A stretch of 64,000 bases of DNA from Acholoe squamosa. Lineage: Eukaryota; Annelida; Polychaeta; Phyllodocida; Polynoidae. The stretch lies in assembly GCA_949317995.1 (NCBI GenBank), contig OX439042.1:15355174-15419173 (forward strand), read 5' to 3'. Positions within the stretch are counted from its first letter, which is position 1. Each line of letters opens with the position of its first letter. Position numbers and translations under genes: made by a program. The notes under the pieces were generated by a model, which saw nothing but the letters and a program-made list of their open reading frames with translations, was not told where the DNA came from and ran no database searches. Shown here one piece after another: positions 28,801 through 59,268 of this stretch.

Positions 28801-31800
28801 TCATATTCACATGTGTCAGGAGCCGTCTAACCATGGATTAAAGGTCCTTAGATTATTGCTGCGTCGCAGTCCTTTACCAAGCATGCCATTATCAAATCTG
28901 CTACCTGCCTTTGTACATAGCTATCAGGTAAATAGCCATCAGTCAGACCCGTATAGATGTGTTTCATTGGTCTCCCAGGGTGCATCTTGTGGCATACTCG
29001 CTGTATGAAGGGTGTATGCAGTCTGTACCTGCTATTAAGTCTCATAATACCCTCATTCACTTCACAAACTGTTTCATTTAGAATTACCTGGTGAGTGTGT
29101 GGTACTTTATCAGTACCTCCCCGAATCACTGACAGCTCACCCCCGTATGGTGTGCATATCAGGATTTAAACATCACCATTTACACTCATGGCACTCTCCA
29201 GTAAGGACTCATCGATCCAGTAGGTCTAGTTTTGCATAGTCCATGTATACCTGACGTAGTCTTAATTTAGTACGATCATCATTCATGGATACTAAGTCAT
29301 AAAAACCATGGTAGCTAGTCTTGACTATAATCCACCCTGGTAGGGCTTATATCGACTATAGTTGACAGACATCATATAGGATGTGTATAGGATTTGCAAA
29401 CAGGCCCATCCATATAGGTACTATACTTTTTTAGAGGCCACCCCCATGGCCAGGACAATCATTTCTGCTCTACCCTTTAATGGTTAAAAGCTGAAAAGCT
29501 GTGCAAATAGTGTGAAAATAGGGGTTTGAAATATATTCTACTCTTAAGAGATTCAATCAAAAATAAGCTTGACTTATGCAGAGGCAGACACAAAATCACA
29601 GGCCATTGCCAGCCCAGCTATAGTGTCTACTCCTGAATCTGTTGCTTTGGAATATGTAATGGAAAACCTCCGCAGAGCTGGAGGTTTTATGGCAATATAC
29701 TCCATCCACTGAAGTTTATGTAACAGTAAAACCATAAATATAACCATATTTTGACATAAATTGTAGAGGCCTAGAAGAGGATTTGAATCGTCTACACTGG
29801 TTGTGATACAAAGCTATGATAAGTATATATGGTGTTCAAGTCTACAATCGCCAGCAGTCTCAATAGTATAATGTCTGACTTTGAATCACAGAATGTGGGT
29901 TCAAGACTGCGTAGGAAAAGTGTTTTTAACTTACACATACAAGGTAAAAGGAGTCTTGTAAAAGGCCCCCCTGAATCCCCCCTTTGTCATTTTGCAACCA
30001 GAGGATGTTCATTATAATACATCATTTTTAGAATTTGTTGCAAAAATGACAGTGGTCAACCGAGAATAAAACAAAATCACACCAGGGGTTTGAACCTGTG
30101 TGGTCTAGATTTCTAGTACCAGGCCTTAACCACTTCACTAGACTGACCAGTCAAACTTTCAAAGTGAAATCACCCTGTTTAACTATAATTGATTACTCAG
30201 TCATAGAAGTAGCATATTGCCCTTCAGTAGATGTTCTAACATTCTGAGTATCAGCTGAGGACTCATGGTGTAATGGTTAGCACATGAGACTCAGGATCCC
30301 AGGACTGACTGGTGCGTGGGTACGAATCCCATATGAGACAGAATTTTCCCAAGAATTACATCTGCTGTTCAAAAATGACCTTTTTCATAAAATCTCCTGC
30401 TACGCTTGGCCTATTTCAGAAAACCTCCTCCCAGACCTGACCCAATTCACAAAACCTCCTGCTAGAATTAACCTAATTCATAAAACCTCCTGTTGGCCCC
30501 CAAACTGTTGAATATGGAAATAAACCTACAGTAGGAACAATAGGGTGCAGAGTGTCAATGGACGATTCTGGGTATTATTATTATTTTTCATATTTACTAA
30601 TTTTTTCGCCATATAAAACCCAAGCTCTGCTCACGATCCATACTCAACAATCTCCTGCATTCCTCAATAGGAACCAGGATCCTTTAGTCATCACAAACAC
30701 ATTTCCTCCATGAGGCTCTGTGACATAATGTAGACGTATGTAATTACATTCCAATCATATCTACACCCACACAGCCCCGCTGGAGGATGTGGGGTCCACC
30801 TGTGGTGCCATATTTGGAATGAGAGAATATTTCACAATCTCCTCTCAATCCTCATCAATATGATTAACACACAGGTGGCAATCTCTCCCTATGACACGTG
30901 TCCCTATTTCATTGAGCCACGTGTATAGAATATTTCACAACACCGCGAGCTGCTCAAGTCCTTCATATAAAAGGCAGCTTGAGCAGCTCCCAATCATCTC
31001 TCCCAACTTACACCTTACACCTATACCTAGAACCTACGACAGGTTGAGCTATAGGATCGGAGGCAGAGCTTAGATCTTGGGGAGTGTTATCATTGTTACC
31101 ACCTTTATGAAACACTCATGTCAGCTATGCAATAAAAGGATCAACTGAACTTCCCTGGATTCCGTGTACATTCACTTCACCACATGTAACTGTCCGTTGA
31201 CACGATGGTGGATGAACCCTCCAAGAATATCCCACTACCAACCTCTCATTAAACATGAGCAATAGTGAGACATCACCTAAGGAGCCAGCTTCAGAACAAC
31301 GCACCTTTACATCACCTGGGCTAGACGCGCCCAACCAACCCACAAGTGATACTACACATCACCTCCAGAGGCAAACTTCATCTCCAGATGCACTGACATT
31401 GGATCCAGTCTTACCTATAGCACTGCAGGCCCACGTATTACAACCTGTGAGTACCGGTATTGAGCAATTTTCCTCTACAATAGTGGACCACAATACTGGA
31501 GCACACACCAGTACCCCAGTATCACTACCTGCACCAGGATTAGACATCACCTTACCTGGTTACTCACAAGTAAATTCACCGCCACTAAGACTTTCTGGTA
31601 TAACTAGCCCAACCTCTGAAGTACCTGTGGACAATACACAGAGCCACTTGTACCTCGATCCACCGCTGGAGGACAGAACACCAGAGCTTCAAGCCGCCCT
31701 CCAGGATATCACTCCCCCACAACCCACAACACCTAGTGCAGCTGCATCTGCAGCACAGACTAACCCAGGTGTAACTTCACATAAACCACCAGTTTGTGAG

Positions 31801-34800
31801 GAGCCAGTGGTTGTGGACACAGACTCTGACGCTTCCCTAGACGCTGATTACTGGAGAGACAGAATCGGATCAGCAGTTTCTAGGTGGAGAGCAGCCTATG
31901 AAAACGGTGTAGGCAGGGTTTCCAATAACAACTCTGGACACCCGGTAGGAGACAATCCAAACTTCTCACTCAACATTAATAGACTATTGGATGAGTGGCT
32001 TGACCCTACTGTTACCCAGCCAAACCGATACCAATCCACTTCTGAAGAGGAGGACCTGTACCCCCCACCTGTGTACACACCTACACAGCCACTTAGAACC
32101 AGGTCAGTGAACTCACCACCCAGACAAGGCTCTAGATTTAGAAGGAGGGCCCAATCAAGCTCACCTCTTAGAAGAAGAACCCCCACTGGTAACAGACTAC
32201 TGAGAAGTGTGGACGGAGCTACAAGCAGGTCTCATCTCGTAGCTACAACCCCGCTACTCAATAGAGGCAATAGGACGCCTTACAACTCACCTCACCTCAT
32301 CGGTTCACCTGGAGAAGATACTGAAGTAACCTTTCCCCGCCGACCCAATATGGCAATGTCCCGAGGTCAGCCCCCTCAGTATGACCAGGAGGACATGAGG
32401 AGAAGTCTTGTCAGGGACTGTACTAACGCTGTCAGTGAATCTCTCTCTGAGCTATTAGCCAAACACGTGGGCACCCTATCCACTGAGATTAAAAATCATG
32501 GACAGGAACACTCAGATCAGTTGGCTAGAGTACACCTCAGGTTAGATGACATGGAACGCTGGAAGGAGCATATGGAAAGCAACACCGCCCACAACTTCAG
32601 GCAGGCAGAACAAGGCAATATGGAAGTTCTCAGAAGATCCGAGGATTTCACATATCAAATGACTGACCAGCTCAGCAAAAACATGGACTCAATGAGGCTT
32701 GACCTAATGAGGGCCATTCAAAGCCATTCTAACAATGCCGACACCACCAACTCCAGCCAAACTGCCACCAGCGCCCAAGGCAATCCAGGACACACACAAT
32801 CCACTCCTCCTTACCCCACGGCACCTGACTACAGCCCCAGCCATAATGACATGACAGGAGCAAGGCTGAGCCCACCACATGCCTTCAGGGACAACAGTAA
32901 CCAAAATGCAGCATCACATGCACTACACCAATCTCCAGCAGCTAGTGCACCAAACACCCACCAGGGGGCGATAACATCTTGTAACACAGCGCCTAATCTA
33001 AACCAACATGGTGGCCATGTGGTTAATGGTGTTTACAGTCCCCAAGGACAAACAAGCAACCACTCTGGACTACCATATCCTCCTAGGTATGATCATATAG
33101 CACACTCCACACCGGTAGTGCACCAGGGAGGATACCATGGCGCTGAGTATACCAGATTTTCCCCTAGTAGAATGGACAGCGACAAGCTCACATCTGCCCA
33201 GTTAGGCTCATTCAACAAGCCTGAACCTTTTGATAAACCGACGCCCTACAGGTCTGCAGCAAAATTTCTGACTGAATTTAAATTCTTCATAAGGAATGTG
33301 CACGCCAAGAGGCCCGACCTACATGCAACTTGCCTGTACACTTTTCTCAAAGGGAGGGCAGCTCAGTGGTTTTTCAGCAACATAATGGACAAGCCCATCA
33401 TGCAAAACAATGACGCCGTCTATGAAGCTTTCTTGGCGAGATTTGGCACTCCCGACCTCAGTACCATCCTCAAGGGATACAGAGCCAGGAAACAAAAGCC
33501 AAATGAAACCACTGAGGACTACCTTGCAGACATGACCATGTTGTTGTCCAGCAGCAGCATAGACAAGGCTTCACAAATGGACTACCTTGTAAATGGCCTC
33601 AGACCCGAGCTGAAAAATGTTGTTGTAGCTAAGTCTCCCAAGACCTTGCTGGAAGCTGAACAATTAGCCATAAATCAAGAACTGAACCTCGAGGCTATAA
33701 AAATCGCTCAGAATAGCTCAGCAGAGTTATGTGCAGTAGGCTACAATAAGGACGACAACAGATCCAGAAAGGATAAATATCAGCGCGACCACAAGAAAGA
33801 AGACAGACTGCCCAGTAGTAACTACAACAAGCAGTATGAAAATAAATTCAAAAACAGTTACAGAGGAAGGTCCAAGTCTTCAGACAGATCCAATCCCAAG
33901 GACTACAGATCTAATTCCAAAAATAGGTCCGACTATAAGTCCCCAGGAAGAGATAGGTCAAAAGACAGATCAGAACAAAGGTCAAGATCCTCTGATAGCA
34001 ACAAAAGTTTTGTCTTCATACCAGTTGCTGGACAGCCAAATAACAGTAAAAATGTCTCCTTCATGGTCCCAGCTGACTTCACCATCCCAGACAATTGGGT
34101 ACAACAATCATTGAAGAAGTCCAGAGACCCAACCCCAGGCAGGAACTACTCCAGAAGCCATTCAGGATCTCAGTCTGAGGCCGACAATGACAGCCCCAAT
34201 AACACACAAGATGAATAGGGATCAGGGGAAGGCACTCAAGCACCTAGTGACCCCGACCCCACCCGGACCACGACCATCAAATTATCCAAGGACACTTCTC
34301 GAGATGCTGATGCAGAAATGAATTCAGTAGACTCCCAATCATCCAGTTCGAATTATACCAACTTCTTGAATACCAATGAGAATTCAGACTCCAGTGATGA
34401 CGAGGACGAGTATGAGGACCAGAGCCAGAGGACTTCAATCCTGAGACTGAGGATCAAATCTGAGCAGTATGGGCAGCAAGGTAAGGCCATTTACGTTGAT
34501 ACAGAATTAACCAAAGGTGCAGTTTCTGTAGACATAAATAACCACTTGTATAGAGCTCTTGTTGACTCAGGCGCCTCACTTTCCTTTATTAGCCAAAAAA
34601 TGGCTGACAAAATCGCGAACACACCAAATTTTAGACACAGGAGACGCGCGCGACTGACAGTTTTATTGGCTGATAAAACCCCCATCCAAGTAAATCACTC
34701 CATGACTGTAACATTCCTCATTGGTGGCCATGAATTCAGATCCAGATTCCATGTGGTACCTGAACTGAACCATCCCCTAATTTTAGGAGTAAATTTCATG

Positions 34801-37800
34801 ACCAAATACAAAGCCAAAATTTCCTTTGGACCGACTCCCCCATCGCCCAACTACATCAGGGCAAACAAAAATGTTGATATTCCACCAAACACTGAAGCCA
34901 CTTTCAATGCGGTTGTGATAGGGAATAGCAACATTGTGGGAAAAACTGGATTGACTGAGAACTCAGGTTCTACCCTACCGGTACTTATTAAGCACGCCAT
35001 AGTTAAACCTAGATCAGACCTTAAGATAGTACCAGTAACAGTAGCTAACCCAAATGACTTCCCCATCAAGATAAAAAGACACATGAACCTCGGTGTATTT
35101 AGACTTTTCAACATCAAAAAGGCTGTACCCATTGGTGCACTCAATAGCGCCCATTCACTCAACAGTGTAACAACAGAAAAGGACTTATTCCCAATCAATT
35201 GTGGAGAGGATCCCATGGACCAACTCCCCAAATGGAATGAACCTTTGAAGTATAAAATCTGTGAAAAACTCTCTGAAATTCGAAGGCAACAGATCAAAAA
35301 CATCGTTGAGGCCAATAGGCAAGCCTTTGTCCTAAATGAAAGCGCCATAGGTCTCAATGTAGAAAATGAAGTTAAACTGGAATTAAAACCAGACTTCAAA
35401 CCCTGCAACAGACCGTCGTATAGGATGTCCCCTCACAAAGAAATTTTTCAAAGGGAACTCCTGAAAAAACATTTAGAACAGGGGATAATAGAAGAGTGTA
35501 CCAAACCCTGTGAGTGGAACTCACCTGCCTTTTTAGTGCCGAAACCACAAGGTGACAGGTCAGTAGCCTCTGGTTGGAGAATTGTAGTTGACTACAGATG
35601 GGTAAATGAGAATTTAAAAACTTTCTCTTACTCATTCCCCAGAGCTGACGACCTCATGCAGCAGATAGGCAGAACGGGCGCCAAATATTTTTCCAAATTG
35701 GATGTCTACAGCGCCTACCACCAGATTCCCCTAGCAGAAGAATCTAGGCCACTTACCACTTTCTCTGCCAATGGCACGAGATACATGGCCAAAGTTCTCC
35801 CTATGGGACTCAAAACTTCAGGCCTATCCTTTATGAATGTAATGGAACAACTCCTCATGAAATGCAAGTATAAAAATGCTGTAGCATATGTAGATGATGT
35901 AGCCATTTACAGCCCCACGTGGGAAAGGCACTTACAAGATCTGGACGAGGTTTTAAAACTTTTTATCAGAGGAAACATCAAACTGAAATCAGAAAAATGT
36001 GAATTTGGAACTACCAAAATGGAATTTTTGGGTTTCAACGTAGACCAGCATGGTTTGTCACCATCCCCGGACAAAATAGGACCTGTCAAAACCTTCCCCC
36101 CACCTAAAAACATCCATGATCTTAGATGTTTCAATGGTATGGCGCAGTTTTACAAAAGGTTCATCAGAGGTTTTGCTCATGTCATGAAGCCCCTTTATGA
36201 GGCGACAAAAAGCACCTTTAAATGGACCACTGAGTGTCAGAGAGCCTTTGAGAAAATTAAAGCTGCTATCTGCACTGAAGCTGTGCTAAAATTCCCGGAC
36301 TATAACAGACCTTTTGTCATTTTTACTGACTCGAGCAACTACAGCTTAGGGGCTGTAATCACTCAGGTAGACGACTATGGTTTCTATAGACCAATTGAAT
36401 TTGCAGGGAGGGGTTTGACACCTCAAGAGTCTAGGTATGGGATAACTGATAAAGAACTGTTGGGAATAGTTTTTGCAGTCAAAAAGTTCCACCATTATGT
36501 GGATAGAACTCACTTCAAAGTATACTCGGACCACACCGCCCTGGTTTCCCTTTTCAATAAAAAGGAAAATATAACCAATGGAAGGTTAGCCAGGTGGGTC
36601 GACACAGTCATGTCCTACGACTTTGAAGTCAGATACCTGCAAGGCAGAGCCAATATTGTGGCAGATTTTCTTTCCAGAAGAAAATACCCGCCCGGCTCTG
36701 ATGACCCAATTCCCATCAGGTCTCAAGGTAAAATAATACTACCTCCTAAATCAGTCAAATTCTCTGACATTACCATGACCAAAGTTTTCAAATCAAATGA
36801 CCCAATTCCCAAAAATCCAGTCCTCATGGGACCACCTAGGTCCATACTAAAAGGAGGACAGATTTGGGGTAGCACTTCCAAGAAGCCAAAGGGTGTGATT
36901 GCCAAGAAAGGTAGCTCTGAGAGAGAAAAACTCAGCTCCATTCAAACTGTGCCCGAGCTGTGCATTTTAATTCGATCTAAAGCCAAGTTACCAGACCCAG
37001 CCACACCCCTCAGCCCAGCAAATCAACCAGAAGTAAACAGACCCGCCCCCCTAAGGTCAAGGACACCAAGACCAAACCAAGGGGCCGACCACCCAAATCT
37101 AGGTCACCCAGAGTATCAGTGAAATTAGCTAATACCAGAAGGGCTAAGCTATCACACAAAGTGCTACCCATGGCTGAACGAGCGATAAGCCAGCTATGTA
37201 AACACCACTCCCTAACCCCATCCAGGGAGACACTGATACAGGCACAGCAGGAGGATGTTTTCTCAAACTCCATGCTGTCATACATCAATAAGGGTGAATT
37301 ACCAGAGGACCCCAGCCTTAGCAAACAGATACTGCTAAACCACGACCAGTTCATGATTTTAGACGAAGTTTTATTCAGGATCACCAAATCAACCTATGGA
37401 GACAGTTTAGAGCCCACACTACAAATAGTGATGCCAGAAAAGTGGGCAGAATCACTAATTGAGGCCACACACTGCTCACCATTAGGAGGACACTTTGGTC
37501 CCACTAAAACATACGCAGCAATCAGATCCAGGTATTATTGGCGTTCCATGTTCAAACATGTTTTTGACTACTGTGGCACTTGCCACACATGTCTCACAAC
37601 AAAGAAAAGACCAAAACACCTGAGAACCCCAATGACCCTGAGAGACCCTGTTTTAACAGCCTACACTCACCTCACCATGGATACCATCGGTCCTTTCACA
37701 CCTGCTGTGGATGGATCCTCATTTATCCATGTTGTCACAGATCATGCTACCAGGCACATCACTGTTTGGTCCACAAAGGATAACACCAGCGCCGAAGTAG

Positions 37801-40800
37801 CGCTAGGATTTTTCCAAAGGGTTATTTGTGTTTTTGGAACCCCATCAGTCCTGAACACAGATAACGCACAACAGTATGGTTCCAAATATTTCACATCTTT
37901 TTGTGATAAATTCGGCATCAAACATGTGACAGGGAGTGCACATTGGTCAAAATCACAAGGTCTATGTGAGCGTCAACATCAAACAATAGAATCTTCACTC
38001 AGAGCCTTTGTCTCCAAATCACAAAAACATTGGTCGACCTTCCTACAGGCTATAGCATTCAGCATAAACAACACTGTATGCAGCGTGCTAGGATACTCAC
38101 CCAATCTTTTAGTATTTGGAAAACAAACACATCTCCCAACTGAGTCCTCCCTCTCATTGGTCCAACAAACTGAAGAGATCAAAGACAAGGAAAAATTGGT
38201 TACCGCCCTACTCAGTTTAAGAGATGACATCCAACTTAAGGCAGCTGAGAGCATGATCAAACACCATAAAAAGATGAAAGCCAGATATGACGCCACTGCT
38301 TCTCCATGCACCTACAACACAGCTCAGCTTGTGTATTTACAAATACCTAACCTGTTGGTCAAACAAACGAGCAAAAAGCTGCAGCCCACCTATAGTGGAC
38401 CATACATCATAATGAAAATGACTTCACCAGTAACTGCAAAACTAAAAAGGCTACAGGATGGTAAAGTATTGAAAAAATCAATACATGTATCTAGATTAAG
38501 GAGACCAATCACCAAGGCTAGCGCCAAGGCTGTGATCAAAAGACTGCAGTCTGGGCCAGTTAACACCTTGTATGACCCTGATCTAGATTTCACCCACATT
38601 GGTGAACCAGAATCCCCCGCAGTCAAAAAGAAAAGAGGACGACCTGCAAAGAAAGGACTTGTCACCTTTGCCCCTTCCCCAAAAAAGAAGACAAAGAAAA
38701 AGTCCACGAAAAAGAAATAGATTTTCAGAAAACACACAATTTCCCCCCCCCCAAACACCCACCTTAACCCCCCCCCCCCACATTTACACATACCTCTCTA
38801 CCTTTACCTCCAACCGGTGGCAGTTTTGGCCACGTGTTATTTCGTGCAATGATGTTTTTCCCCACAATTTTCTTTTCTCGTCATTTATCATTTTTATTAT
38901 CCAAACCACATACCAATTACCTTTAACGTCACAATTTCTACACAAAACCCCAAAAGCCTTCTGGCTTATTTTTACTGATGGGACATTGTCAAGAATTTTA
39001 TCTAGAGTTTGAGACTCAGACAGTCATATAATGATTGATTAAGGTTGGCACGCCACATAAATTACCCAAGGTCACAGCGTATTCTCGGTTCTTGGATCCT
39101 AACTCTAGGAACACGCATGCGCCGGTTTGTTACAAGCTCAGGGCTCCTCTATACCCTAAAGTATTACCAAATGACCGCCTATTGTAGGAGAGCAGCACCT
39201 AGACATCCTGATCCGTGTTTATACCTCTGTTTACCATCAGTACTGGAAGGTTTGGTGAGACACTTAATAAAATAATTCAGCACAGCTCCCTGCTGTGTTA
39301 TCACAACAGGAACAAGTGCACCCCTGGTAAGCTGACTAACCTCAGCACCACAGCCATTACTCCCCTCTTAATTATATTCAATATTCAGATCATCCAATGA
39401 TCATCCGTCAGGAATGGAAGGTACCCCTCCTCAATCTGCATATCACAGGCATGTCATATGCAAAACAACCAATAGCTAGGCCTCGTGCCATATATGGGTG
39501 AGACATACCTCATCGGGAGGCATGTAGTGAGGAATTAGCCAACCTCATGAAGTGCTTATAAGCCTCACACCACCCCCATCTTAACCACTCTTATCAAATA
39601 CACCAAACTCACCACATCCAGCCGCTATGGAGCAAGCATCCGGAGACCACAGGACCCAAGTGTCGGGACTGCCATGCAACAAGCCCAGGTAGGATCGGTC
39701 TTATGTGTCCATTAGTACTGTCATCAATCGTTCTAGCATGACAATGATGGAATCTACCATCATGTTGCCCAGATACCCATTACATGCCAATGGTAGTGTG
39801 CGCCCAGAGTGCTTTGTAAAATGTGATAGTTGAATTTGCAGTCGTTTTTCAAAACCATGTATGGCAGCCTGATTTTTCACAATCTTATTTATCAACCTCT
39901 TGACAAAACCCCCCACCAGCCCATTCATCTATCTTAGTCTAACAACAAACCTATCAAACCTTTTCTTATTATTCACAACAGCCTTAGAGCCCCAGAGATT
40001 AGACATGGAGCCAACTCAGGGTGGACCATCCACAATCTTTTAGGCCCAAACGGCATCAAAAGTAAGGCCATGGATCTGTTCGAGATCAGAATAACTATCA
40101 TGGAGCACAAAGACATGATCAAACGTATATCCAGCAAAGACTTAGGTGTATACCTAAACAACAAAACAGTTCAAAAAGAGCTCACCCTACAAGACCCAAT
40201 TGTATTATCGGCCACCAAGGCCATGATATTCGATCTATGCAAAGATTTCCCCACAGTCCCATTGTGGGACAGATTCAGTGAGGAAACATCAAGCTATATA
40301 GCACTCCTATGTGCCAGAACCCTGATTACCTCAGAGAAACCACTTAAAGAGCTACCAAGATATGAAACAGGTATCGGCAGATACAATGTCATAATCCAAT
40401 CAACAAATCTCCAGACCCAGCTGGCAGCGTTTGAAATGGCTAGATACTCCCCCTTATACAGTTAAAAGCTATCAACCCTGAATTGACCCATTTTTCCCCC
40501 CCTACACATTTACGATGTGAAAAATCAATTACTTTCCTTCAAATTCCTTTTTTTTTCTCTTCTCATGACAATTTTTTTTTTAACATGACTAAGATGGAGA
40601 CATCCTTGCTGGTTAAGATATCAGCCTAGCAACCTGATAACCTTTTAAATAACACGTCCCACCGCACACAACCAAGCGACCCCCCCCCCACATGTATAGG
40701 ACACCCACCGCCCAATCTACACAAACATACCTCACACAAAGCCAACTCCCCAACCCAAAACCCTTAAAAAGACCCACCTCACCCCGGACAAACAGTCCTA

Positions 40801-43800
40801 TCTTAGTCTCATATGATCCATTTCTCATAAGCTTATCTAAATTTCTATTTTTAGAATAGCAGCCTCCTTGGCAGCACTCTTCCTAATTATGTGCACCCAG
40901 ACCCAACAGTCAGGAGCACAGGATTTTGTAACCAAAGAAGAGACCATCTTCAGGCCAAACTATGGTGTTTTATTCACTAAAATACCCCAGAAAATGATCT
41001 CAGGATATATGGATTACCCATTAGTTTTCGCTTTAGACCTATCCTTTAATCAATCCTTGCAGCGACCGGACAAATTAACTTCCCTAGTCAGCAGAAATGC
41101 CCCAAATTTTATCTCGGAAACCGCCCAATCTTTAGACCTAATTTTGACAAAACTCTACCAAAAATCTCAAAAATCTTTAGCCCTGTTAATAAAATTTTTG
41201 GAGCATCCCCAAACCAGAACACCCAGAGGCGCCCCAGGACAGATCATAGGTGATATTTTAAGAGCATCAATTGGTTTGAGCACGCAACCTGAAGTAGACT
41301 TGTTGAATTCTGAAATGTCCGACTTAGAAAAAGCCCTAGCTACTAAAATGCACATGGTAGAATTAGCCACACATTTTCTTTTGAACATTTCTGAATTTAA
41401 TTATCAATCTCTAAGCATTTTCTCCAGCATACAAAATAACACGGATGACGCCCTGTCTCTGCTCAGTTCCAACCTCCAGCTCTTGAGTAAGAATGTATCA
41501 AATATCTTATTCAACCTGGAACAACAGAGCAGACAAGACACCTATCATTCGATGTTATTTACCGCTGCTAACTCTCAGATTGAAGCGCTAATGAGCCTGC
41601 AAAATGATTTAGACACCCTTCTGGACTCACTAACCACTCTAATGAAAGGTGAGCTACCTCCAAAATTAATTCCCCATAAAGTTATGGAAGATGGACTTAA
41701 TAATCTATCAAGCTCCTTGTATGAAGCCCATAACGGTATCACGATTCTAAACGTACCCACCGGTTTCTTCTACAAGAGGAGAGTGCATGTGCACTGGCAG
41801 GACCAAAACAAACTTTACATCACAGTACCTATACCCATAGGACTGGGAGACAACACCTACTCCATATATAGGGCGGAGGCCTTTCCAGTCCCATTTGATA
41901 CCACCAATGTAAACACTACTGGGTTTACACAAGTACAGCCTTTGCCTGATTACATAGCTATGTCTGTGTCCCAGTCACACTACATTGAACTGGACCACTC
42001 TGACTTAGATCTATGTGATGTAAATGTTTTTATAACATGCAACCTGCCCCTGCCCATGTTATCTCCTAGGTACCCCACCTGCAGCTTATCCCTATTTTTA
42101 GACCTACCTGACGCTGTACATAACACCTGCAATTTTCGGGCCCACATGACAGCACAAATTCCCAACATTGCTAAGCCCATCTCCCAGAACTCCTATATGC
42201 TGATCACTAGCACTTCACCTTCAATAATACAATGCTCGAACTCAGGCCAAATCGAGATCAAAAATGCAGCCTACTCTATTATTTCAGTACCATGCCTCTG
42301 CTCACTTAAAAACAGAGGCATGATAATGATTAATTCCGATCTATCCTGCGCCCAAAACTTTACTCTAGAACCTATTGCCAAAGTGCCCGTCAATTTGCCA
42401 CTATGGCGGCATTTTGGTAACCCGCCAATCAACACATCAGGAGTAACCATAGCAACCACCCCGACCCATCTAGACCTACCAAATTTTCAGCGCCTGAAGC
42501 GCCTTCACAACCAAAAATTCCTACCCCTATTCAAGGACATTTTAAACTTAAAAGGCGCTGCCACCAAAATTCATGATAAGTCATCCATCCTGAGCACCAA
42601 CTCACTCATACATCTAGGATATCACCTGGAATTCTCCCCTTGGTTACACCTGTTGTCGCCAGCCATCACCATCTTGTGCTGCCTGATCACGTGTCGTGTA
42701 CACATGCGCGTGGTATACTTAGCCCAATTAATGACCATTCACAGTCGAGCAACGATGGCTGACGCAGCATCTTGGAATAAGCTTAAAGAAATGATCAGAA
42801 ACACCAACCAAAATTGGCCTACGCGGACCCCACCCCAGGAGATCACAACACCTGACTGGATTCAGATGCCAGGAAGGTATGATTCCATGATTGTCTTTCT
42901 AGGCATCATACTCAGCTTGCTATTCATCAGAGCGGCAGGGAGACGCTGTCTCAGGCATTGGCCCTACAGCAGACAGGACCCCGCCCCCGGCACCCCAAGA
43001 TTCGTGCTGAAAATACACTCTGGAGGGCACACATATGCTTTTCCAGTGGATTAATGGTGTATGGAAGGAACCTTTGGCCAGTCTCCATCTTGGCTCCCAA
43101 ACTAGCACCACCCAGGTTAACTTTCCCCCTAGCCCGTCATCTTGATGCGCATTGGAAGTCAGACGTCGGAATGATCATTGGTGGAAGGACGGTGAAGCTG
43201 GAGAGGTACCCCAGTTGCCCTTTGCTCTGGCGCATTCCCCTCGCAATCATCCTCAGATCCAGACCCCACACGGTCACCCTGGCCATTGTACAGGAAAACC
43301 AGCCTGACTTCCAACTCACACCAAGTGAATATGAACTATCGGCCAGCTACAAACCAGTGCCACCTATGACACGGAGAAAAGACCTACTCAGGCGGGAAGC
43401 CCCTAAAGCCTCCACCAGTGGGACAACTCCAGCAGAGATGGCCCTGCTACAACTCAGAGAAACCCAACCACCCAAGGACCTATACTTATTAAACCCTACA
43501 CTGGCTGAGAGGGCCATGAACACCATGGATGGTAGGTTTTTAAACATTTTAAACCATTAGTTTCGGCTGATGTGGGGATCGTTGAGAACACTCAGCATCC
43601 TCAGCGACCTCCACCGGCCACCCCCCGAGGTTCCTCCCATAATGGACTCTCCCCAGCGCCCACAGGCCCGGTGACAACACTGGACGGTACCACCACCCTT
43701 ATGTGGGGATGGCAGGTGCTGAACAGCGCTACATAGCAGACCGGATAGCCCTGAGACGCTGATGTGGGGATCCCCCTCCTATCCGCCGAGATCCCCGAGA

Positions 43801-46800: not shown

Positions 46801-49800
46801 GGTGGAGTATAAACATGACAGATTCACCTCATATAACATAATATATTTAAGAGTTCAAGATGGTAGCCATTATCCAAGCTGGGCAGTCATTCTCTAGGAT
46901 GGCATTTCTAATCAGGTTACAACTTTACAAGTCATGCCAGAAGTACCCTGTATGATTAAATCACAGCCCAATCTTACAGAGCAATTGTCCTGTCTCCATC
47001 CGCACAGCCGTAGAGCTCAGTGTATTCCCCTTCTGTGCACAGTAGACCCCATTTCGTACAATTTCTCTCTACAACTAAAGTTCTTCTGAGGTGTAGTGGC
47101 TGTGGCTAGGGCTGTGTGCGATCAAGATTTCCTCTCAGATTGTATATCATAGCGAGCAGCATCTTAAGTACTAGCATGATGAACAGATGAAAGTATATAA
47201 GAAAATGAATGCAAGAGGCTACTCTCAGAAGGCAGAGATAAGAAACACAAACTGTTCAAAGACTCAATTGTGAAGAACTTTATATCAACACATGCCAAGG
47301 TGTGCATAGGAAAAGATTGACATATCTGTGAAGGTTTAAACATTATCTTATAAAGCATCAAAATGGATTATGTCTGTTAGAGTCTGTTTTGACCTTGAAA
47401 ACATTCTTTTTATTGATGGACTATTGAAAGAAACTACCCTGACACAAATGGTATGTCACATACATTGGCCCTTGCAGTGTATGGTCTAGTCCTTATTATT
47501 GTTTGTCTTATTATAACACAGAGTGATTCAGGTTCAGGTACACAAATGTTATATGGCTGATTCAGTGAGCCTACACAAAACTTGCAAATGTGTCACAACT
47601 ATCTGCATGTCATTGATGATATGTACAGCAGATTTCTTATCTCAATGTGAGTTCCCTTTCTGTGTGAAACAACTTTTCACCTGGGAGAGCTTAGAAATGA
47701 TAAGGAAGAGCCTAATACCAAACAATGTTCACATGAGGGTTAGCTTGGTATACCATTAGCCAATGCCTGATTCTCAAGTGATCAAATGGTCACTCCCTAA
47801 TATTGGCTATGAAAATCATGCATTACTTATTGCTTTATCTCCCCACATAATGGCCATTTTTCACTAAGTTATGTTGACATGGGTGAGAGCTATATTCATA
47901 TTAAATTACATTTTGTGGTCAGAATGTCATGTTCAAATTATCTCTGTTCCTTCTCTAACAGAGACTCCCTTCCTCTGATTATGATGCCTGCTTACCCCTC
48001 CCCTTCTATTAAACTTGAGGACATGTTGCTTCATTTCACTTCAATCCTTCTCGCCAAATAGCAGGTTTTAAGTGATAGGAAAGGCAGTGGTAGCCTATGA
48101 GCACTCTGATTTGAATATCTGGCAACAGAATTAAAAAAGGGTTCTGATGGAAGTAGAATCAGATTAGGATGGGTCTCCTAGATTCATGGCAAGCAGTGTT
48201 CATTTTTGATGGTTGAATCCCAACAGTCACCTACATGGTGACTGTTGATAAAATGAAAAAATACTGACTGTTGAGAAAATGATAAATATTTGAATGATTC
48301 CAGTTCTAAAGCAGCAAACAAACCCCCGTATATGGAAATTGACACTGAGTTTGATGACGTAGTGGGACATCCTGTTCCATAAACAAAGGTAGGCACTAAG
48401 ATTTTGGGACTTTGACCAAATGTGAACTACTGTAATCTCCCGCGTAGAAGGCGCAGCTCGCGTAGAAGGCACCCCCCAACTCAGAGAAGGCCTTTTCACG
48501 TAGAAGGCGCACATACCTCTTCTGGATCGATTTCGGAAAAACCCGCATATAAGGCGCCCCCCCAACTCACAGGGGGGCTGTTTTGCGTAGAAGGCACCCC
48601 CCTCCCCACCCCCCTATATGAGTTCAAGCTGTCATCGGCACACGGTCGGCGTCAAACCGCCGAGCGCCCGTCAACACCTCCCGGCCTGCCGCGCTGCTGG
48701 CTATATGAGTTCAAGCTGTCATCGGCACACGGTGTGATGGTCGGTGTCAAACCCGCCGAGCAAATCTACAGCGACCGGTCTGCCGCGGTGCTGGCTATAT
48801 GAGTTCAAGCTGTCATCGGCACACGGTGTGACGGTCGGCGTCAAACCCGCCGAGCAAATCTACAGCGACCGGGCTGCCGCGCTGCTGGTGCTATGAGTTC
48901 AAGCTGTCATCGGCACACGGTCGGCGTCAAACCCGCCGAGCGCCCGTCGACACCTCCCGGTCTGCCGTGCTGCTGGCAGCTGTCATCGGCACACGGTGTG
49001 ACGGTCGGTGTCAAACCGGCCGAGCAAATCTACAGCGACCGGTCTGCCGCGGTGCTGGCTATATGAGTTCAAGCTGTCATCGGCACACGGTGTGACGGTC
49101 GGCGTCAAACCCGCCAAGCAAATCTACAGCGACCGGGCTGCCGCGCTGCTGGTGCTATGAGTTCAAGCTGTCATCGGCACACGGTCGGCGTCAAACCCGC
49201 CGAGCGCCCGTCGACACCTCCCGGTCTGCCGTGCTGCTGGCAGCTGTCATCGGCACACGGTGTGACGGTCGGTGTCAAACCGGCCGAGCAAATCTACACC
49301 GACCGGGCTGCCGAATTGCTGGCTATATGAGTTCAAGCTGTCATCGGCGCATGGTGGGCCTTATCCCCGGCGAGCGCATCGACACCTCCCGGTCTGCCGC
49401 GGTGCTGGCGCTATGAGTTCAAGCTGTCATCGGTGCATTTTCCCAAATGAGATGTTGGAAAAACCCGCGTATAAGGCGCACCCCAAACTCAAGGCAATTT
49501 ACCTCCCGCGTATAAGACCCAGCAGCATTTTGTTTGGCGTAGAAGACGTGCCTTCTACGCGGGAGATTACGGTATGTCTATCTAAGAAAGCTAAGACTTT
49601 CAGAAAAATCTTGTATCCAGACCTAAAATTATAGGCCATTGGCCTCTTAGTGAGTGTTTGTGTCTACCCCTGCATAGAGGAGTATTTATAGATTTCTAAT
49701 GATGAAGCATTTTGGCAAATACATGTACTTTGGAAAATTATTCTAAAGCATTATAGCCAATAGTCAGATTCACTTCAGTAGGTTAAGAAATAAAAGAAAC

Positions 49801-53097: not shown

Positions 53098-53999
53098 GTG
53101 CAAGCAAAAATATTGCTTTTACTTTTTAAAAACTGAATGTTTGAGAAATTAGTCATTTCACTCTCTACCTCTAACTTTAGAGATGTCTTGATGTTGGCTG
53201 CTGGCTGTGGTTCAGGGTGTGGCCAACTTAACACGAATCTCCATGTACAGATTTAATTGTTAACAATTTATGGAACATTTGGTATTCTACTATATTAGAA
53301 TTAATCAATATACCCCCCATGGTCTTGTAGCATGAACCGTGATGGCCGCGCCCATGGCCTAATTTCAAGGAGCCCTGTAGGCACAGTGGTAGACCACAGA
53401 CTATTGTCCGAATCAGGGGTAAAAAACATTAATCAAGTTGCGATACCTGCAGAAATCATTCTGCATGTCATTTAAAGTGACAGGGTGTGACATAATTACC
53501 ATGGCTAACCTTCCGTATAGCAGGTAGGTTAATAGGCTTATTTTGAATGGCATGTAAGGTGTGCCTGTTATCAATTAGGCCGGGGGCTGGTAGGGCCCAC
53601 CATGCCCCCCCCCCACATCCCAACACGACAGGTTTTTTTTTTTGATCCTTAGGGTCCCCAGAACAAGATTCAAGATGTTAACATTGATTATCTTGGGATG
53701 CACTACCAGTTTTTGCCAATCCATGTGCGGGTTCAGACCACCTTTGGGTCAATCTTGCTACCATATTATTCAAGGGGTAGGCTCAATCCCTCAGCTCTAA
53801 GAATATCCGTCCATGCCTGGATCCTGAAGCTATTGGTCTTGTTGGAAAGAAGACATAATAAGCTTTTCATTAAACCCTTCAACTGTATTTGTACATATTT
53901 TTATTTTTGTTTTGTACATCTCTTGTATTGTAAATATTATTGTTTTGAACATGACCACACCTACAACTAGACTCCATGATTTTTTTGGGAATGAAGGGG
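53098..53999. other. No gene seen; 5' flank of the carboxypeptidase gene
   Basis: Upstream of the gene's TATA candidate. It contains short homopolymer runs and no recognisable coding segment. Confidence 0.5.
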
Positions 54000-54895
54000 C
54001 TGAAGATGGTACACCTAAATACTAGAAGCATGTTTCATAAAAGGCAGGAGATTTTTAATCATCTAGATGGGACGAATGTAGTATGTATAAGCGAAACCCG
54101 GCTGCATGAGGAATATTATGATGATTGAATCAATTGGAAAGATATGTACTTGTTCAGGCAAGATAGGCAGCATAAGAAGGGTGGTGGTCTAGCTGTCTAT
54201 GTGAGAGATGATGTACAGGCTGATATAACATTACGACATGATTTGAGTTGTTCAAACAAGCATCTTGAATGTTTGGTGCTGGATAATAAATTTAAGTCAC
54301 ATGTTATCCAAATTGAAACTCTATATAGACCACCATCTGGAAAGCATGATAAATTCTTTGAACATTTGGATGTATTAATGACCAGTGCTGATAAAGATGT
54401 TGAGCAATGGATCATGGGAGACATAAATATAAACACCCTGCGAGAAAAACTGAGTGGTACTATAAAGTTATCTGATGCTTGCAAATTTGAAGGTTATCAC
54501 AAATTAATTCATCAATGCACAAGGCCATTTAAAAAACCTGTATCATGCCTAGACAATATTTTAATTAATTCATCAATGCACAAGGCCATTTAAAAAACCT
54601 GTATCATGCCTAGACAATATTTTAACTATTTACAATGAAGAGACCACACATTGTGTTTTGAATTTTTTGGTGAGTGATCATCTACCTGTTTTTGTTGTTA
54701 AAACCAAAGAAAAGGTATTGTATATGAAAAGAAAATATGGGTAAGGAAATATAAGGGTTTTAATGAGGAGTTCTTTATTGACTGGCTTGCCATGGCTGAT
54801 GGGGACTATCATTATAACCTATCTGACCCTGACAAGGCCTGGAAATTTATACAGAATCATATTGTAGATTTTCTGGATGAATTTACTTCATGGAA
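54000..54895 (+). pseudogene. LINE fragment: APE-type endonuclease, broken
   Basis: The endonuclease begins near 54005 (MVHLNTRSMFHKRQ, then CISETRL) and continues through GGGLAVYVRDD, ETLYRPPSGK, QWIMGDININ and SDHLPVFVV. An in-frame stop lies near 54126. A 61-bp tandem duplication (54502-54562 and 54563-54623) breaks the frame. It then reads a post-endonuclease linker (EEFFIDWLAM) and stops abruptly near 54900, where the next LINE begins. Sequence differs from the endonuclease at 56534, so this is a separate element. Confidence 0.8.
54502..54623. repeat. 61-bp tandem duplication
   Basis: Two practically identical 61-bp copies starting AATTAATTCATCAATGCACA at 54502 and 54563, inside the LINE endonuclease fragment. 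Recent, because the copies are the same. Confidence 0.9.
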
Positions 54896-54917
54896 GGAAA
54901 TTGAGGTCGTTTTAAAT

Positions 54918-55373
54918 TAACTAGAAGCTCGCTTAAAATCCCAGGAATCTATAAATCAAGGCACGGTTCGGTTGCTACGCGGAATGGAACTCCGTCTGTT
55001 TGGCCCCAATGGCTTCCCAGCGAATGAGTCAATGTCAATACCTAAGATTGAACAAAAAATCACTGAAATTGAGGAATCGGTGTCAACTCATAGTGACAAA
55101 ATTGAAAATAATGTATCTGAGACAGTGAAAATTCGAAGTATAACTGATAAGCATGAAGACCAGTTCTCACGTATCGATGTAGATCGGAAGAAAAAAATAC
55201 TGATAATCGAAGGCCTGAATGAAGATAAGCCTGCAAGCTTAAGAGAAACATTGGACCAGCTCCTGAATGACCTCTCACTTGACTTTAACAATACTGCTGC
55301 TGAAGCAATATATCGTAGAGGTAAAAGGAAAACTCCAACCCCTAGCAGAAAAAGAATCCCCATTTCAAACTAA
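54918..55373 (+). CDS. LINE ORF1, N-terminal part: coiled coil and RRM-like domain
   Basis: Starts after a stop near 54915 and reads a coiled coil (IEQKITEIEESV) followed by an RRM-like domain with the RKKKILIIEGLNE strand and a RRGKRK end, as in L1/CR1-type ORF1 proteins, which bind the element RNA. The frame ends at TAA 55371-55373, but the homologous reading continues in another frame. A one-base indel near 55345-55360 (A-rich run) therefore splits ORF1. Confidence 0.7.
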
Positions 55374-56203
55374 CAAACCGACCAGTAGTTGTAGTGTTCT
55401 CCTCTGCTCAATACAAACTGAGAATGTTTGGAAATATCAAGAATCTTCAAGGAAACCCTACATGGAAGGGACTACACCTTGCAGACGATATTTCACCTGA
55501 GGATAAAAGAATGCAAAAGGACATAAGGGCTATACAGGCTCTAGCCAGGAACAAAGGTATTGACTGTAATGCAAAGGGTACAAACCTGGTGATTGAAGGC
55601 AAGTTATTCCCATACAAAGAAATTAACAATCTACCATATGATTTGTCCCTGAAGAATGCTAAGACGATTGAAACCCCAGACGGGCTAGCTTTCCAAGGAG
55701 AACATTCTATATTTTCTAACCTATACAAATGTCCCATCACATTTGAAAACCAGCAATATGACTCGGTGGAAAGAGCATACCATGCAAAGAAATGCGTAGT
55801 TAGTAACCAGATGAACGTCTTGAGAAGGGTCCTTGCTGCTAAAACGCCAATGGACAGTATGTATACAGCCAAGCAATGTAACATCTCAAACGACTGGTAT
55901 GATATTGAAGAAGATGTAATGAGCAGACTACTTGAAATAAAGTTCGCACAGCCAAACCTCCATCAAGAATTAATCAACTCCAAAGGAAAATACCTATACG
56001 AGGCCACCTACCACAGCACCTATGGTATAGGTTTTCATCTTGGTCAGCGAGACCAAATAACTATTAAAAATGTGGCCCTCAACCAACATGAATGTTCCAA
56101 TAGACTAGGGGAAATGCTCATGAAAGTTAGGTATAGGTACACAAATGAAGACCCACTACCAACATCAGAAGAAATACGGCTACAGGATGCTAGAAGAAAT
56201 TAA
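55370..56203 (+). CDS. LINE ORF1, C-terminal part with a NADAR (YbiA/DUF1768-like) domain
   Basis: The first part completes a typical ORF1 C-terminal domain (RMFGNIKNLQG, DDISPEDKRMQ). It is followed by a NADAR domain, with positions numbered from 55394: FSNLYKCPITFENQQ (107-121), DSVERAYHAKK (123-133), EIKFAQPNLHQEL (181-193), LYEATYHSTYGIG (201-213) and NRLGEMLMKVR (236-246). This is the family order of SNF, svEhaYqaxK, KFxqn, E-x-WGxG and NxLGxxLMxvR. The tryptophan of WGxG is Tyr here. NADAR proteins act on ADP-ribose / N-glycosidic bonds: YbiA on riboflavin intermediates, and DarT-linked members removing ADP-ribose from guanine in DNA. What it does inside an RNA-binding ORF1 protein is unknown. 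Confidence 0.82.
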   Translation, partial: LTNRPVVVVFSSAQYKLRMFGNIKNLQGNPTWKGLHLADDISPEDKRMQKDIRAIQALARNKGIDCNAKGTNLVIEGKLFPYKEINNLPYDLSLKNAKTIETPDGLAFQGEHSIFSNLYKCPITFENQQYDSVERAYHAKKCVVSNQMNVLRRVLAAKTPMDSMYTAKQCNISNDWYDIEEDVMSRLLEIKFAQPNLHQELINSKGKYLYEATYHSTYGIGFHLGQRDQITIKNVALNQHECSNRLGEMLMKVRYRYTNEDPLPTSEEIRLQDARRN

Positions 56204-56533: not shown

Positions 56534-57541
56534 ATGCAACACACATTACTGACTGATCTAATTGGCACCAAGGGCCTACGCTTTATGCATATGAATGCTC
56601 GTAGTCTTAAATGTAATTATGCTAGTATTTGTGCTGAAATCTATCCTGCTAATTTTGAAATTTTTACCTTCTCTGAAACATGGTTTAAGAGTGTAGATGA
56701 TGAATCGGAATACCAACTCTCTGGCTACACACGCTATAGATTAGATAGGCAAGTCCTAGATGAAAAGGGTAATATCAAAACTGGTGGTGGCGTATGTATC
56801 TATATTAAACAAGGTCTGAAACATGACTATGATAAATTCTTCACACTATTTCATTTTGACTCCGACATAGAACTTCAATGTATTACTGATGGGTCTAAAA
56901 TAACTTTTATAGACACATTGATTGATACGGTCTCTACCATTGTTGATAAAGACCAATATGAAATTATAGCTATGGGAGACTTTAATTTCAATGTATCTGA
57001 AGATAGTGACCTTGTTCATGATCTATTGAATAAAATGAAGGGTATAGGTCTAAATCAGGAAATTAAGTCTGGTACCAGGAAAAAATCTATTTTAGATTTA
57101 ATTTTTACCAACTTAAGAGGAAACTATATCTATACCGGTGTCTGTAATAACACTATAACTGATCATCTACCGGTGTTCATGGTAAGAAAGAACTGGAAAA
57201 TAAAAAATGAAAAGACTTTTATTACCGGTAGGTCATATTCTAGATTAGACAATGATACACTACTGAGGGAATTTGATGCATACGATTGGACCGAATTTAA
57301 CAGTACTGATGATGTCAACTGTGCCTGGTCTCATATGGAAACAGCAATAAGAAAAATATTAGATAAATATTGTCCAGTTCATAAATTTCTGGTTAATAAA
57401 TATAGGGATCCGTGGATGTCCCAAAATGTGTATGAGATTATACCTGATAAAAATGCCAAACTTTGGAAAGCAAGACGATCTGGTAAAGAGGAAGACTGGA
57501 AATTACTAAGTGAAGCACGTAACAAAGCAAAAAAATTATAG
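56534..57541 (+). CDS. LINE ORF2, endonuclease part
   Basis: ATG at 56534. APE-type endonuclease with FMHMNARSLKCNY, TFSETWF, GGGVCIYIK, IAMGDFNFN and TDHLPVFMV. Between LQCI and FIDTLI about 20 residues, including the usual YRPP strand, are missing without a frame change, so an internal deletion is likely. The frame ends at TAG 57539-57541, just after a run of seven A (57531-57537). RT-type sequence continues in another frame, so this is an indel in the A run. Confidence 0.85.
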   Translation: MQHTLLTDLIGTKGLRFMHMNARSLKCNYASICAEIYPANFEIFTFSETWFKSVDDESEYQLSGYTRYRLDRQVLDEKGNIKTGGGVCIYIKQGLKHDYDKFFTLFHFDSDIELQCITDGSKITFIDTLIDTVSTIVDKDQYEIIAMGDFNFNVSEDSDLVHDLLNKMKGIGLNQEIKSGTRKKSILDLIFTNLRGNYIYTGVCNNTITDHLPVFMVRKNWKIKNEKTFITGRSYSRLDNDTLLREFDAYDWTEFNSTDDVNCAWSHMETAIRKILDKYCPVHKFLVNKYRDPWMSQNVYEIIPDKNAKLWKARRSGKEEDWKLLSEARNKAKKL

Positions 57542-59268
57542 ACAAAGCGAGGAAAAACTTTTTTAAGGATCAGCTGGAAACTTACAAGAATGATCATAAA
57601 AAATTCTGGAAAACCATTAATAATATATTACCGGGTCATCCAAATCACTCAAATAAAATTTCCCTGGTAGATGAAAATAATAATGCCCCAATTGAAGATG
57701 AAAAAGTATCAGACTTTATTAACCAGTACTTTGCCAATATTGGTCACTTGCTTGCCAAAAACCTATCTATACCATGGAAACCTTATGACGACTATGTGAT
57801 TAATCAAATTGATGATATTGAAACCAATGTCCAAGAGGTGGTAAAACTGGTACATGACATAAACACGATTAAATCTTCAGCCATTGATAATATCTCTTCG
57901 ACTATATTAAAAACTGTCTTCAAGCATGCTCCTTCAAAGTTAGTTAAAATTTTTAACCTGTCTTTTAGACAAAATTGTATCCCAGATTCTTGGAAAATAT
58001 CAAAAGTCACACCAATCCCCAAAATGGGAGATCAGAAATTAGTAAACAATTATAGACCAATTTCACTCCTACCCTTACCATGTAAACTTTTAGAGAAAAT
58101 TGTACATAATCATGTTTATGGTTTCTTGATTAAAGAAAATATATTAACATCGAAACAAGGTGGATTTAGATCTGGCTTTAGTACGATAGATACACTGGCA
58201 AAATTTACCGATGATATTAAAAGAAATTTAAATGTGGGTAATTCAACAGTAGCTGCTTTTATAGATCTCAAGAAAGCATTTAATACTGTAGACCATTCAG
58301 TTCTATTAACCAAAATACACCACTACGGCATTCGCTCCAATACATATCACTGGTTCAAAAATTATTTAGACCATAGGTACCAAACAACCTTTACAAATGG
58401 AATACTATCTGATCGAGCTAAAGTGTTATGTGGCGTACCCCAAGGCTCGATATTAGGTCCTTTACTATTTTTAATCTATGTTAATGATGTTATTAAATGT
58501 GTGAAAAATTGTGAGGTTAGACTTTATGCTGATGATACTGTTATATATTCATCTCAAAATATTTTTGAAAATGCTAAAGCACATTTACAAAATGACCTAG
58601 AGGCATATGAAACCTGGTGCATTCAAAATAAACTGTCTATCAATGCCTCTAAAACTAAAATTATGTTCTTCTCTTCTAGTACAAGGAGATTGAATACTTT
58701 AACTGCCAACATTAACCTTAACGATCAGCTACTTCAAGTGGTACCTAGCTATAAGTACTTAGGTGTTATACTGGACCCTCTTTTAAATTACAACCTTCAT
58801 TTAAGTAACCAAGTTAAAACTATAGCCTATAAGACTTATAAATTATGTCTACTAAGAAGATATCTAGATGTCAAACTGGCAATTCAAATATATAAATCTA
58901 CTATTCTACCCTATATGGAGTATGCAGACATCTGCTTCATGTCAACCTATGATAAGTATTTGGACCCTCTCCAATATGCCCAAAATAGATGTTTAAAAAT
59001 TTGTCTAAAAGCTCCTCATTTAACCAACACAAAATATGTGCATAATACTGCTGGAGTAAATATGCTAGAGGAAAGAACAAATGCTCATCTACTTAATTAT
59101 ATGTACAATAGATCAAGATGTGACATGTATAGAGATAAGAGAAATTTAATTACTCGTCTACATGATGCTCCTATTGTCAAATGTATTACCCCAAATTGTT
59201 TATCGTATGCTAGGAGTGTTGAATTTCATGGTGCCATCGCCATTTCAATTATCTCCCTCTTTATCTAA
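57541..59268 (+). CDS. LINE ORF2, reverse transcriptase part
   Basis: Open from the frameshift at 57.54 kb; the first listed ATG is at 57748. RT fingers and palm: [58 protein letters not shown], and the catalytic RLYADDTVIY. Thumb and C-terminal region: NKLSINASKTK and SYKYLGVILD. CR1/jockey-group layout. The listed stop at 59266-59268 follows another small frame change near 59230. The likely original end is the TAA at about 59320. Confidence 0.9.
   Translation, partial: DKARKNFFKDQLETYKNDHKKFWKTINNILPGHPNHSNKISLVDENNNAPIEDEKVSDFINQYFANIGHLLAKNLSIPWKPYDDYVINQIDDIETNVQEVVKLVHDINTIKSSAIDNISSTILKTVFKHAPSKLVKIFNLSFRQNCIPDSWKISKVTPIPKMGDQKLVNNYRPISLLPLPCKLLEKIVHNHVYGFLIKENILTSKQGGFRSGFSTIDTLAKFTDDIKRNLNVGNSTVAAFIDLKKAFNTVDHSVLLTKIHHYGIRSNTYHWFKNYLDHRYQTTFTNGILSDRAKVLCGVPQGSILGPLLFLIYVNDVIKCVKNCEVRLYADDTVIYSSQNIFENAKAHLQNDLEAYETWCIQNKLSINASKTKIMFFSSSTRRLNTLTANINLNDQLLQVVPSYKYLGVILDPLLNYNLHLSNQVKTIAYKTYKLCLLRRYLDVKLAIQIYKSTILPYMEYADICFMSTYDKYLDPLQYAQNRCLKICLKAPHLTNTKYVHNTAGVNMLEERTNAHLLNYMYNRSRCDMYRDKRNLITRLHDAPIVKCITPNCLSYARSVEFHGAIAISIISLFI

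Follow-up and report, generated by a model that had tools for sequence, protein, structure and literature searches.

The 64,000-nucleotide stretch of the Acholoe squamosa genome analysed here (contig OX439042.1, positions 15,355,174 to 15,419,173; hereafter the window) carries a copy of a long interspersed nuclear element (LINE) in which the protein of the first open reading frame (ORF1) continues into a NADAR (YbiA-like) domain. The NADAR part lies intact in an open frame of 277 amino acids at 55370-56203 on the plus strand. In a Pfam scan it matched PF08719 with an E-value of 1.6e-17 and 64.6 bits, against a curated cut-off of 35.1, over residues 111-255 (profile positions 9-160 of 163; window 55700-56134, plus strand), which upholds the fusion of NADAR to a LINE ORF1 protein that the first-pass annotation had read from the letters of the DNA. 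In the alignment with the NADAR of P. nicotianae, whose numbering (PMC11543638) we use throughout, Glu134 (55769-55771), Lys141 (55790-55792) and Glu211 (56000-56002, all plus strand) are equivalent to E43, to the catalytic K50 (K95 of E. coli C7) and to E125, the glutamate of the YbiA subfamily.

Upstream of NADAR, a stop-to-stop frame at 54921-55370 (+) encodes the end of a coiled coil and the first half of an RNA recognition motif (RRM; profile match 55194-55346), and a second frame at 55370-55690 (+) encodes the end of the RRM and a C-terminal domain (CTD; profile match 55370-55675). ORF2 follows on the same strand, with an endonuclease part at 56534-57541 (PF03372, E 1.1e-5) and, in another frame, a reverse transcriptase (RT) part at 57748-59268 (PF00078, E 6.9e-40, with the RT motif in the translation). 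The downstream endonuclease-RT ORF2 of the first-pass annotation is thus present, with the correction that it is split over two frames and that ORF1 itself shifts frame between 55346 and 55370. In many close relatives the open frame around the ORF1 part runs to 507-538 amino acids, and hence the window copy lacks the 5' end of ORF1. As it is both 5'-short and frameshifted, the window copy is dead.

To characterize ORF1, profile A2, made from the window protein and 20 relatives, was searched against the PDB. It matched NADAR 8bau (83 bits) and YbiA 2b3w (78 bits), and its upstream part (profile 71-236) matched human LINE-1 ORF1p 2ykp/2yko with an E-value of 1e-6, in agreement with the RRM and C-terminal domain that had been proposed to precede NADAR. 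Part of this signal is due to the coiled coil, because coiled-coil adhesins match the profile too (E 4e-5); the upstream part without the coiled coil matched 2ldy with an E-value of 0.006. A single relative used without a profile (P0034) gave no significant PDB match (E 0.75), and Pfam listed neither RRM nor Transposase_22 for the ORF1s examined (for L027, among the best 25 of 33 matches). At the level of profile resemblance, the assignment of the window ORF1 to the L1 type (type II: coiled coil, RRM, CTD) is supported.

The A. squamosa genome (1.48 Gb, 63 contigs) contains many such loci. The Pfam NADAR search gave 3224 first-look candidates, and each of the best 150, which were scored, was above the curated cut-off; the window family is absent from these 150. 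The search with the window protein gave 3394 candidates, of which 140 were scored: 66 are at least 80% identical (the window included, and so 65 close relatives) and 74, at 63-68%, form a sister family. All 140 extend into NADAR by 90 residues or more. As no locus occurs in both lists, there are 290 distinct scored NADAR loci, two of which (L001 and L002) look like ordinary genes. Since 65 of the 290 are close relatives of the window copy, the fusion is no accident; a one-off event at the window locus is rejected, and NADAR does recur in many copies of the LINE. Among public proteins, a search with only the window protein turned up a single relative (P0002, 55% identity), and one with the pair as a profile turned up 22. 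No relative was found in the viral contigs scanned with query A1 and with the window RT.

The copies of the window family lie within 2 Mb of contig ends in 11 of 66 cases against 3.2 expected (a post hoc comparison), and two of them (G000:C1:2598 and G000:C13:3412) are less than 3.5 kb from a contig start. The sister family has 4 of 74 copies within 2 Mb against 3.6 expected, and 17 against 9.0 within 5 Mb.

The NADAR domain is under strong purifying selection. Pairwise ratios of nonsynonymous to synonymous divergence (dN/dS) were calculated by the Nei-Gojobori method over about 160 codons of the NADAR part; they are saturated for most between-family pairs. Within the window family (window vs L114, L115 and L116), dN/dS is 0.05-0.06 at a dS of 0.57-0.95. 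For other families, where the values cover pairs of less than 97% identity, four pairs of three families gave 0.05-0.10: L028/L062 0.05 (dS 0.40), L028/L047 0.06 (dS 0.53), L064/L065 0.06 (dS 0.63) and L027/L067 0.10 (dS 1.20). These values are well below 1, as had been predicted. Pairs with a dS below 0.1 ranged from 0.16 to 1.94, as expected of young copies. Such strong selection suggests that the LINE needs the domain, perhaps against a host defence.

NADAR is also linked to the rest of the element. Same-sense endonuclease and/or RT sequence was found downstream at all 29 LINE loci with more than 5 kb of downstream sequence (20 + 9), several of which are copies of one family, several have a broken ORF2, and one (L029) has its ORF2 interrupted by another LINE. 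At L001 and L002, ORF2 was not seen within 1.5 kb downstream. Furthermore, the NADAR lineages match the RT lineages: the NADAR clades A, D, E and F require 5 changes on the RT tree, which is the minimum possible (shuffled mean 11.0, with 0 of 200 as low). Clades A, D and E each form one clade on this tree and F does not (2 changes); of its 15 inner branches, 8 are drawn open and 4 are starred, and a long-branch warning applies to L017 and L015. With the RRM-CTD part of P0008 as query, 34 ORF1 proteins were found (P0008 included), of which 27 continue into NADAR, and in 7 the frame ends or is lost inside the CTD or just where it ends. None of these 34 passes the whole CTD without NADAR, a count that concerns proteins found by their RRM-CTD, as the genome was not searched for NADAR-less ORF1s.

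The NADAR elements of this genome carry three kinds of RT, which we sorted by RT motif. Kind 1 (GVPQGSxLGPLLF), to which the window element belongs, is by its motif presumably CR1/L2/Jockey-like. Kind 2 (GTRQGCCLSPFLF) was found in L017 and L021, with L013 a near copy as judged from its NADAR, and kind 3 (QGGVLSPKLFN) in L015, L016, L022 and L024, with L023 placed here by its NADAR. The window RT scored 54.7 bits to human L1 ORF2p vs 53.2 to R2, and its membership in the Tx1/L1 clade was therefore not supported in this comparison with L1 and R2. The L017 RT scored 233 bits to human L1 ORF2p and 71 to R2 (with a query longer than the window RT query), and the kind 3 RT 91.7 and 71 bits, respectively. 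Kind 2 may represent the Tx1 elements that have already been reported. In the kind 3 ORF1 (L015, L022, L023 and L024), NADAR precedes a domain similar to the LINE ORF1 esterase, and there is no RRM-CTD profile match. In L015, the best PDB match of this second domain was LINE ORF1 esterase 4c1b, which was not significant (E 0.049), and its Pfam SASA match was below the cut-off (E 0.002).

Between the NADAR ORF1 and ORF2 of three elements we observed an extra ORF of about 220-260 amino acids: L012:4452-5240 and 5359-6090, L018:4318-5055 and L026:4566-5288. Three of these four ORFs contain a GGFND motif, and that of L026 does not. Two of the four gave weak GDSL-lipase matches (E 0.14 and 0.001, below cut-off), and the sole match of the L026 ORF, also below cut-off at 0.001 and probably due to chance, was to NarE, which we take to be an ADP-ribosyltransferase. 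An extra esterase-like ORF, if real, would be unusual for LINEs.

The active site was compared for 33 families of the A. squamosa genome (majority residues of clusters at 75% identity of chosen loci, not a census) and 32 ENA relatives. Left out were L009 and L055, which have a stop in NADAR, the bacterial P0023, and the ENA proteins lacking a whole NADAR (P0018-P0020, P0022, P0027, P0030, P0031, P0033-P0035, P0040, P0041, P0043, P0044, P0048, P0050 and P0051). E43, W89 and E125 are the majority residues in 33 of 33 families, and the K50 position is Lys in 29, Arg in 3 and Met in 1. The glutamate and lysine of the window copy are also found in L114-L117. At the E125 position the window copy has neither Asp nor His, and Glu occupies this position in 57 of the 58 own sequences. 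Among the ENA relatives, E43 is kept in 32/32 and E125 in 31/32, the exception (P0003) losing frame before it, and R79 is Arg in 19/32. K95 (K50 here) is essential for efficient hydrolysis, although Arg can substitute in vitro; E88A (E43) made little difference in vitro, while E88Q was inactive; D171 (E125) is needed (PMC11543638). Judged by these residues, the families of this genome look catalytically able and the ENA set not clearly so. The prediction of a conserved catalytic Glu/Lys thus held for both glutamates in all 33 families and for the lysine of the window copy, and failed for the lysine of the ENA relatives, none of which has it. None of the three outcomes that the first-pass annotation had named against itself occurred: the NADAR match was present, the fusion was not unique, and the catalytic residues were not all lost.

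The most likely explanation is that, in this non-LTR (long terminal repeat) element with a type II ORF1-NADAR and an endonuclease-RT ORF2, ORF1p tethers an ADP-ribose eraser to the ribonucleoprotein particle (RNP) of the LINE. We give this reading a probability of roughly 45%, its substrate and purpose being what we infer. ORF1p would coat the element RNA and so keep a functional ADP-ribosyl hydrolase attached to the RNP. Host ADP-ribosyltransferases would put ADP-ribose on guanine of the element RNA, its cDNA or the nicked target, and the tethered NADAR would remove it, so that reverse transcription would not be blocked. The nucleic acid bound by the RRM of L1 ORF1 is single-stranded and chiefly RNA (PMC4120745), and a NADAR fused to an RRM would act on the bound RNA or its cDNA. 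Each of the four NADAR subtypes present in E. coli and its phage, as well as a myxobacterial YbiA, hydrolysed guanosine-ADP-ribose in vitro, and thymidine-ADP-ribose was not reversed by the NADARs tested on it (PMC11125620). Clams have an N2-guanine DNA ADP-ribosylation activity (PMC11209040), PARP1/2 are present at human L1 integration sites and aid insertion (PMC8535693), and uptake of Macro and NADAR domains by metazoan RNA viruses against host-made ADP-ribose adducts has been proposed (PMC9503650). On these grounds we regard an eraser as the best guess and a reader of ADP-ribose as its main rival. The suggestion of the first-pass annotation that the domain may counter host ADP-ribosylation fits the known NADAR chemistry (PMC11543638, PMC11125620), the viral proposal and the clam activity.

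Several observations weigh against an eraser. The K50 position is Met in L118, a sister of the window family, and in the 32 ENA relatives it is Arg in 4, Met in 18, Leu in 6, Cys in 3 and Phe in 1. The phosphate contact R79 is Asp in 19/33 own families. Single copies among the 58 own sequences depart from the pattern, with E125 replaced by Gln in L058 and W89 by Leu in L061. Moreover, the loci of this genome were picked mainly from the top Pfam scores, and the residue counts are therefore biased toward canonical residues. Selection is less strict in some comparisons, as dN/dS is 0.22 for L062/L047 (dS 0.19) and 0.16-0.20 for L058 vs five copies of its own family (dS about 0.2). Finally, YbiA of E. 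coli K-12 rescued neither DarT1 nor YarT toxicity, whereas that of C. crocatus rescued YarT (PMC11125620); activity in vitro thus need not mean a given role.

In the main rival explanation, NADAR reads ADP-ribose rather than erases it: it would bind to the ADP-ribose of PARP-modified DNA ends, proteins or RNA and guide the RNP to a nicked or replicating target, catalysis being dispensable. The absence of the catalytic lysine from all 32 ENA relatives (4 of which have Arg) makes a binding role of this kind conceivable. The retention of both glutamates that contact the distal ribose, in the 33 families and nearly all of the ENA relatives alike, agrees with it, as does the role of PARP1/2 in human L1 insertion (PMC8535693). 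However, a mere binder would hardly need the Lys or Arg that 32 of the 33 families of this genome retain, and the ADP-ribose contacts Y84, D86, R93 and R79 are not conserved, and we consider this explanation unlikely, if still a serious one. Action on small NAD-derived molecules (host-immunity signals or toxins) instead of nucleic acid appears improbable, since fusion to an RRM-CTD ORF1, which most of the families examined show (RT kind 3 is an exception), would be needless for an enzyme with a soluble substrate. A further rival is an RNA-processing or structural role without ADP-ribose chemistry, akin to that of nematode SNA-3; RNA processing has been suggested for the Ectocarpus and oyster elements described below (PMC12477816). 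A purely structural role does not readily explain E43, W89 and E125 in 33/33 families, and we find this rival similarly improbable. That NADAR is a functionless passenger, captured once from a host or a bacterium at the window locus, would suit the broken state of this copy but is refuted by the 65 close copies, the 290 scored loci, the low dN/dS and the match with RT lineages.

The tethered-eraser reading can be extended to a LINE counter-defence, which we regard as possible but rather doubtful. In this scenario, animal hosts would defend themselves against transposons by using CARP-1-like or PARP enzymes to attach ADP-ribose to guanine of retroelement RNA or cDNA. Several LINE lineages, both some whose RT is L1-like and some whose RT is not, would have acquired a tethered eraser or exchanged it among themselves, and the lineages without the lysine would have switched substrate or turned into readers. 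Most of what is known of reversible nucleic-acid ADP-ribosylation comes from bacterial toxin-antitoxin pairs. Should animal LINEs depend on an ADP-ribose eraser borne by ORF1p, then such modification of nucleic acid would probably endanger retroelements in these animals and so amount to a defence of which we have met no description. NADAR LINEs are plentiful and include relatives with open frames, and the Lys and Lys-less classes offer a direct experimental contrast.

The ORF1-NADAR fusion as such is already known, because NADAR has been noted in ORF1 of several Crassostrea gigas Tx1 LINEs, as well as in the Gypsy Pol of Ectocarpus (PMC12477816). This was the only relevant paper among the listed open-licence matches for NADAR, YbiA or DUF1768 with retrotransposons. 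The oyster elements resemble ours in having a YbiA-family NADAR in a LINE ORF1; they differ in that the window RT is not clearly L1-like, and the passages at hand give them one sentence, without copies, selection or residues. The Ectocarpus elements also bear NADAR on a retroelement, but this is an LTR element with NADAR at the N-terminus of Pol and not in ORF1. Those passages mention neither carriers outside the L1 type nor the occurrence of three RT kinds within a single genome, and say nothing of selection or of the division by active site. The NADAR-bearing RNA viruses are likewise RNA-based animal parasites that captured the domain, with counter-ADP-ribosylation proposed, but they are viruses and not LINEs (PMC9503650); the terms retrotransposon, retroelement, transpos and reverse transcriptase are absent from that text. 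The type II ORF1 of CR1/L2 elements shares the coiled coil, RRM and CTD in a LINE with a CR1/L2/Jockey-like RT, while the additions mentioned in the passages at hand are PHD and esterase domains, not NADAR (PMC4120745). The DarT1-NADAR toxin-antitoxin system shares the NADAR fold family and its guanine-ADP-ribose chemistry is known (PMC11543638), but the window has the YbiA-type Glu and not the BC4488-type Asp. No DarT partner or ADP-ribosyltransferase family was among the matches of the four window ORFs scanned, and a DarT1-linked (BC4488) antitoxin was rejected on both grounds.

As to the origin of the domain, the NADAR tree (62 rows) places the window with P0002, P0004 and L027 (98/91), and this group is nested in a larger one that comprises every one of the 16 ENA ORF1 rows together with 6 own rows (95/89). 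L001 and L002, the best-scoring host-like NADARs, group with NADARs of Paenibacillus and Bacteroidetes (99/97), apart from the other LINE NADARs; the prokaryotic rows are near kin of L001 by choice, because they were found with L001 as query. L017, the L1-like element, stands beside this group on a long branch (99/96). A host NADAR gene as the recent source looks unlikely, as L001 and L002 group with bacterial NADARs, yet L017 adjoins that group. The tree places prokaryotic NADARs between LINE clades, but a single LINE clade was not rejected (p-AU 0.224 for 47 rows vs 15; 0.348 without L017), and p-AU for the ten RT-kind-1 rows as one clade vs 18 others was 0.084. Transfer of ORF1 modules from one LINE lineage to another has been proposed (PMC4120745). 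Also of note is that L001 and L002 are stand-alone NADAR frames (184 and 169 bits), and that L001 is 58% identical to Paenibacillus NADARs, which perhaps reflects an old bacterial transfer.

Elsewhere in the window, a fragment resembling the endonuclease of another LINE was recognized by eye at 53980-54900 and contains an exact tandem duplication of 61 bp (54502-54625). Two LTR-retrotransposon-like elements, each with gag-like, pol-like and third, membrane-protein-like ORFs, were likewise recognized by eye at 11387-21611 (-) and 31255-43054 (+). Tandem arrays lie at 21590-22275 (34 units of 20 bp) and at 48642-49433 (94/264-bp units).
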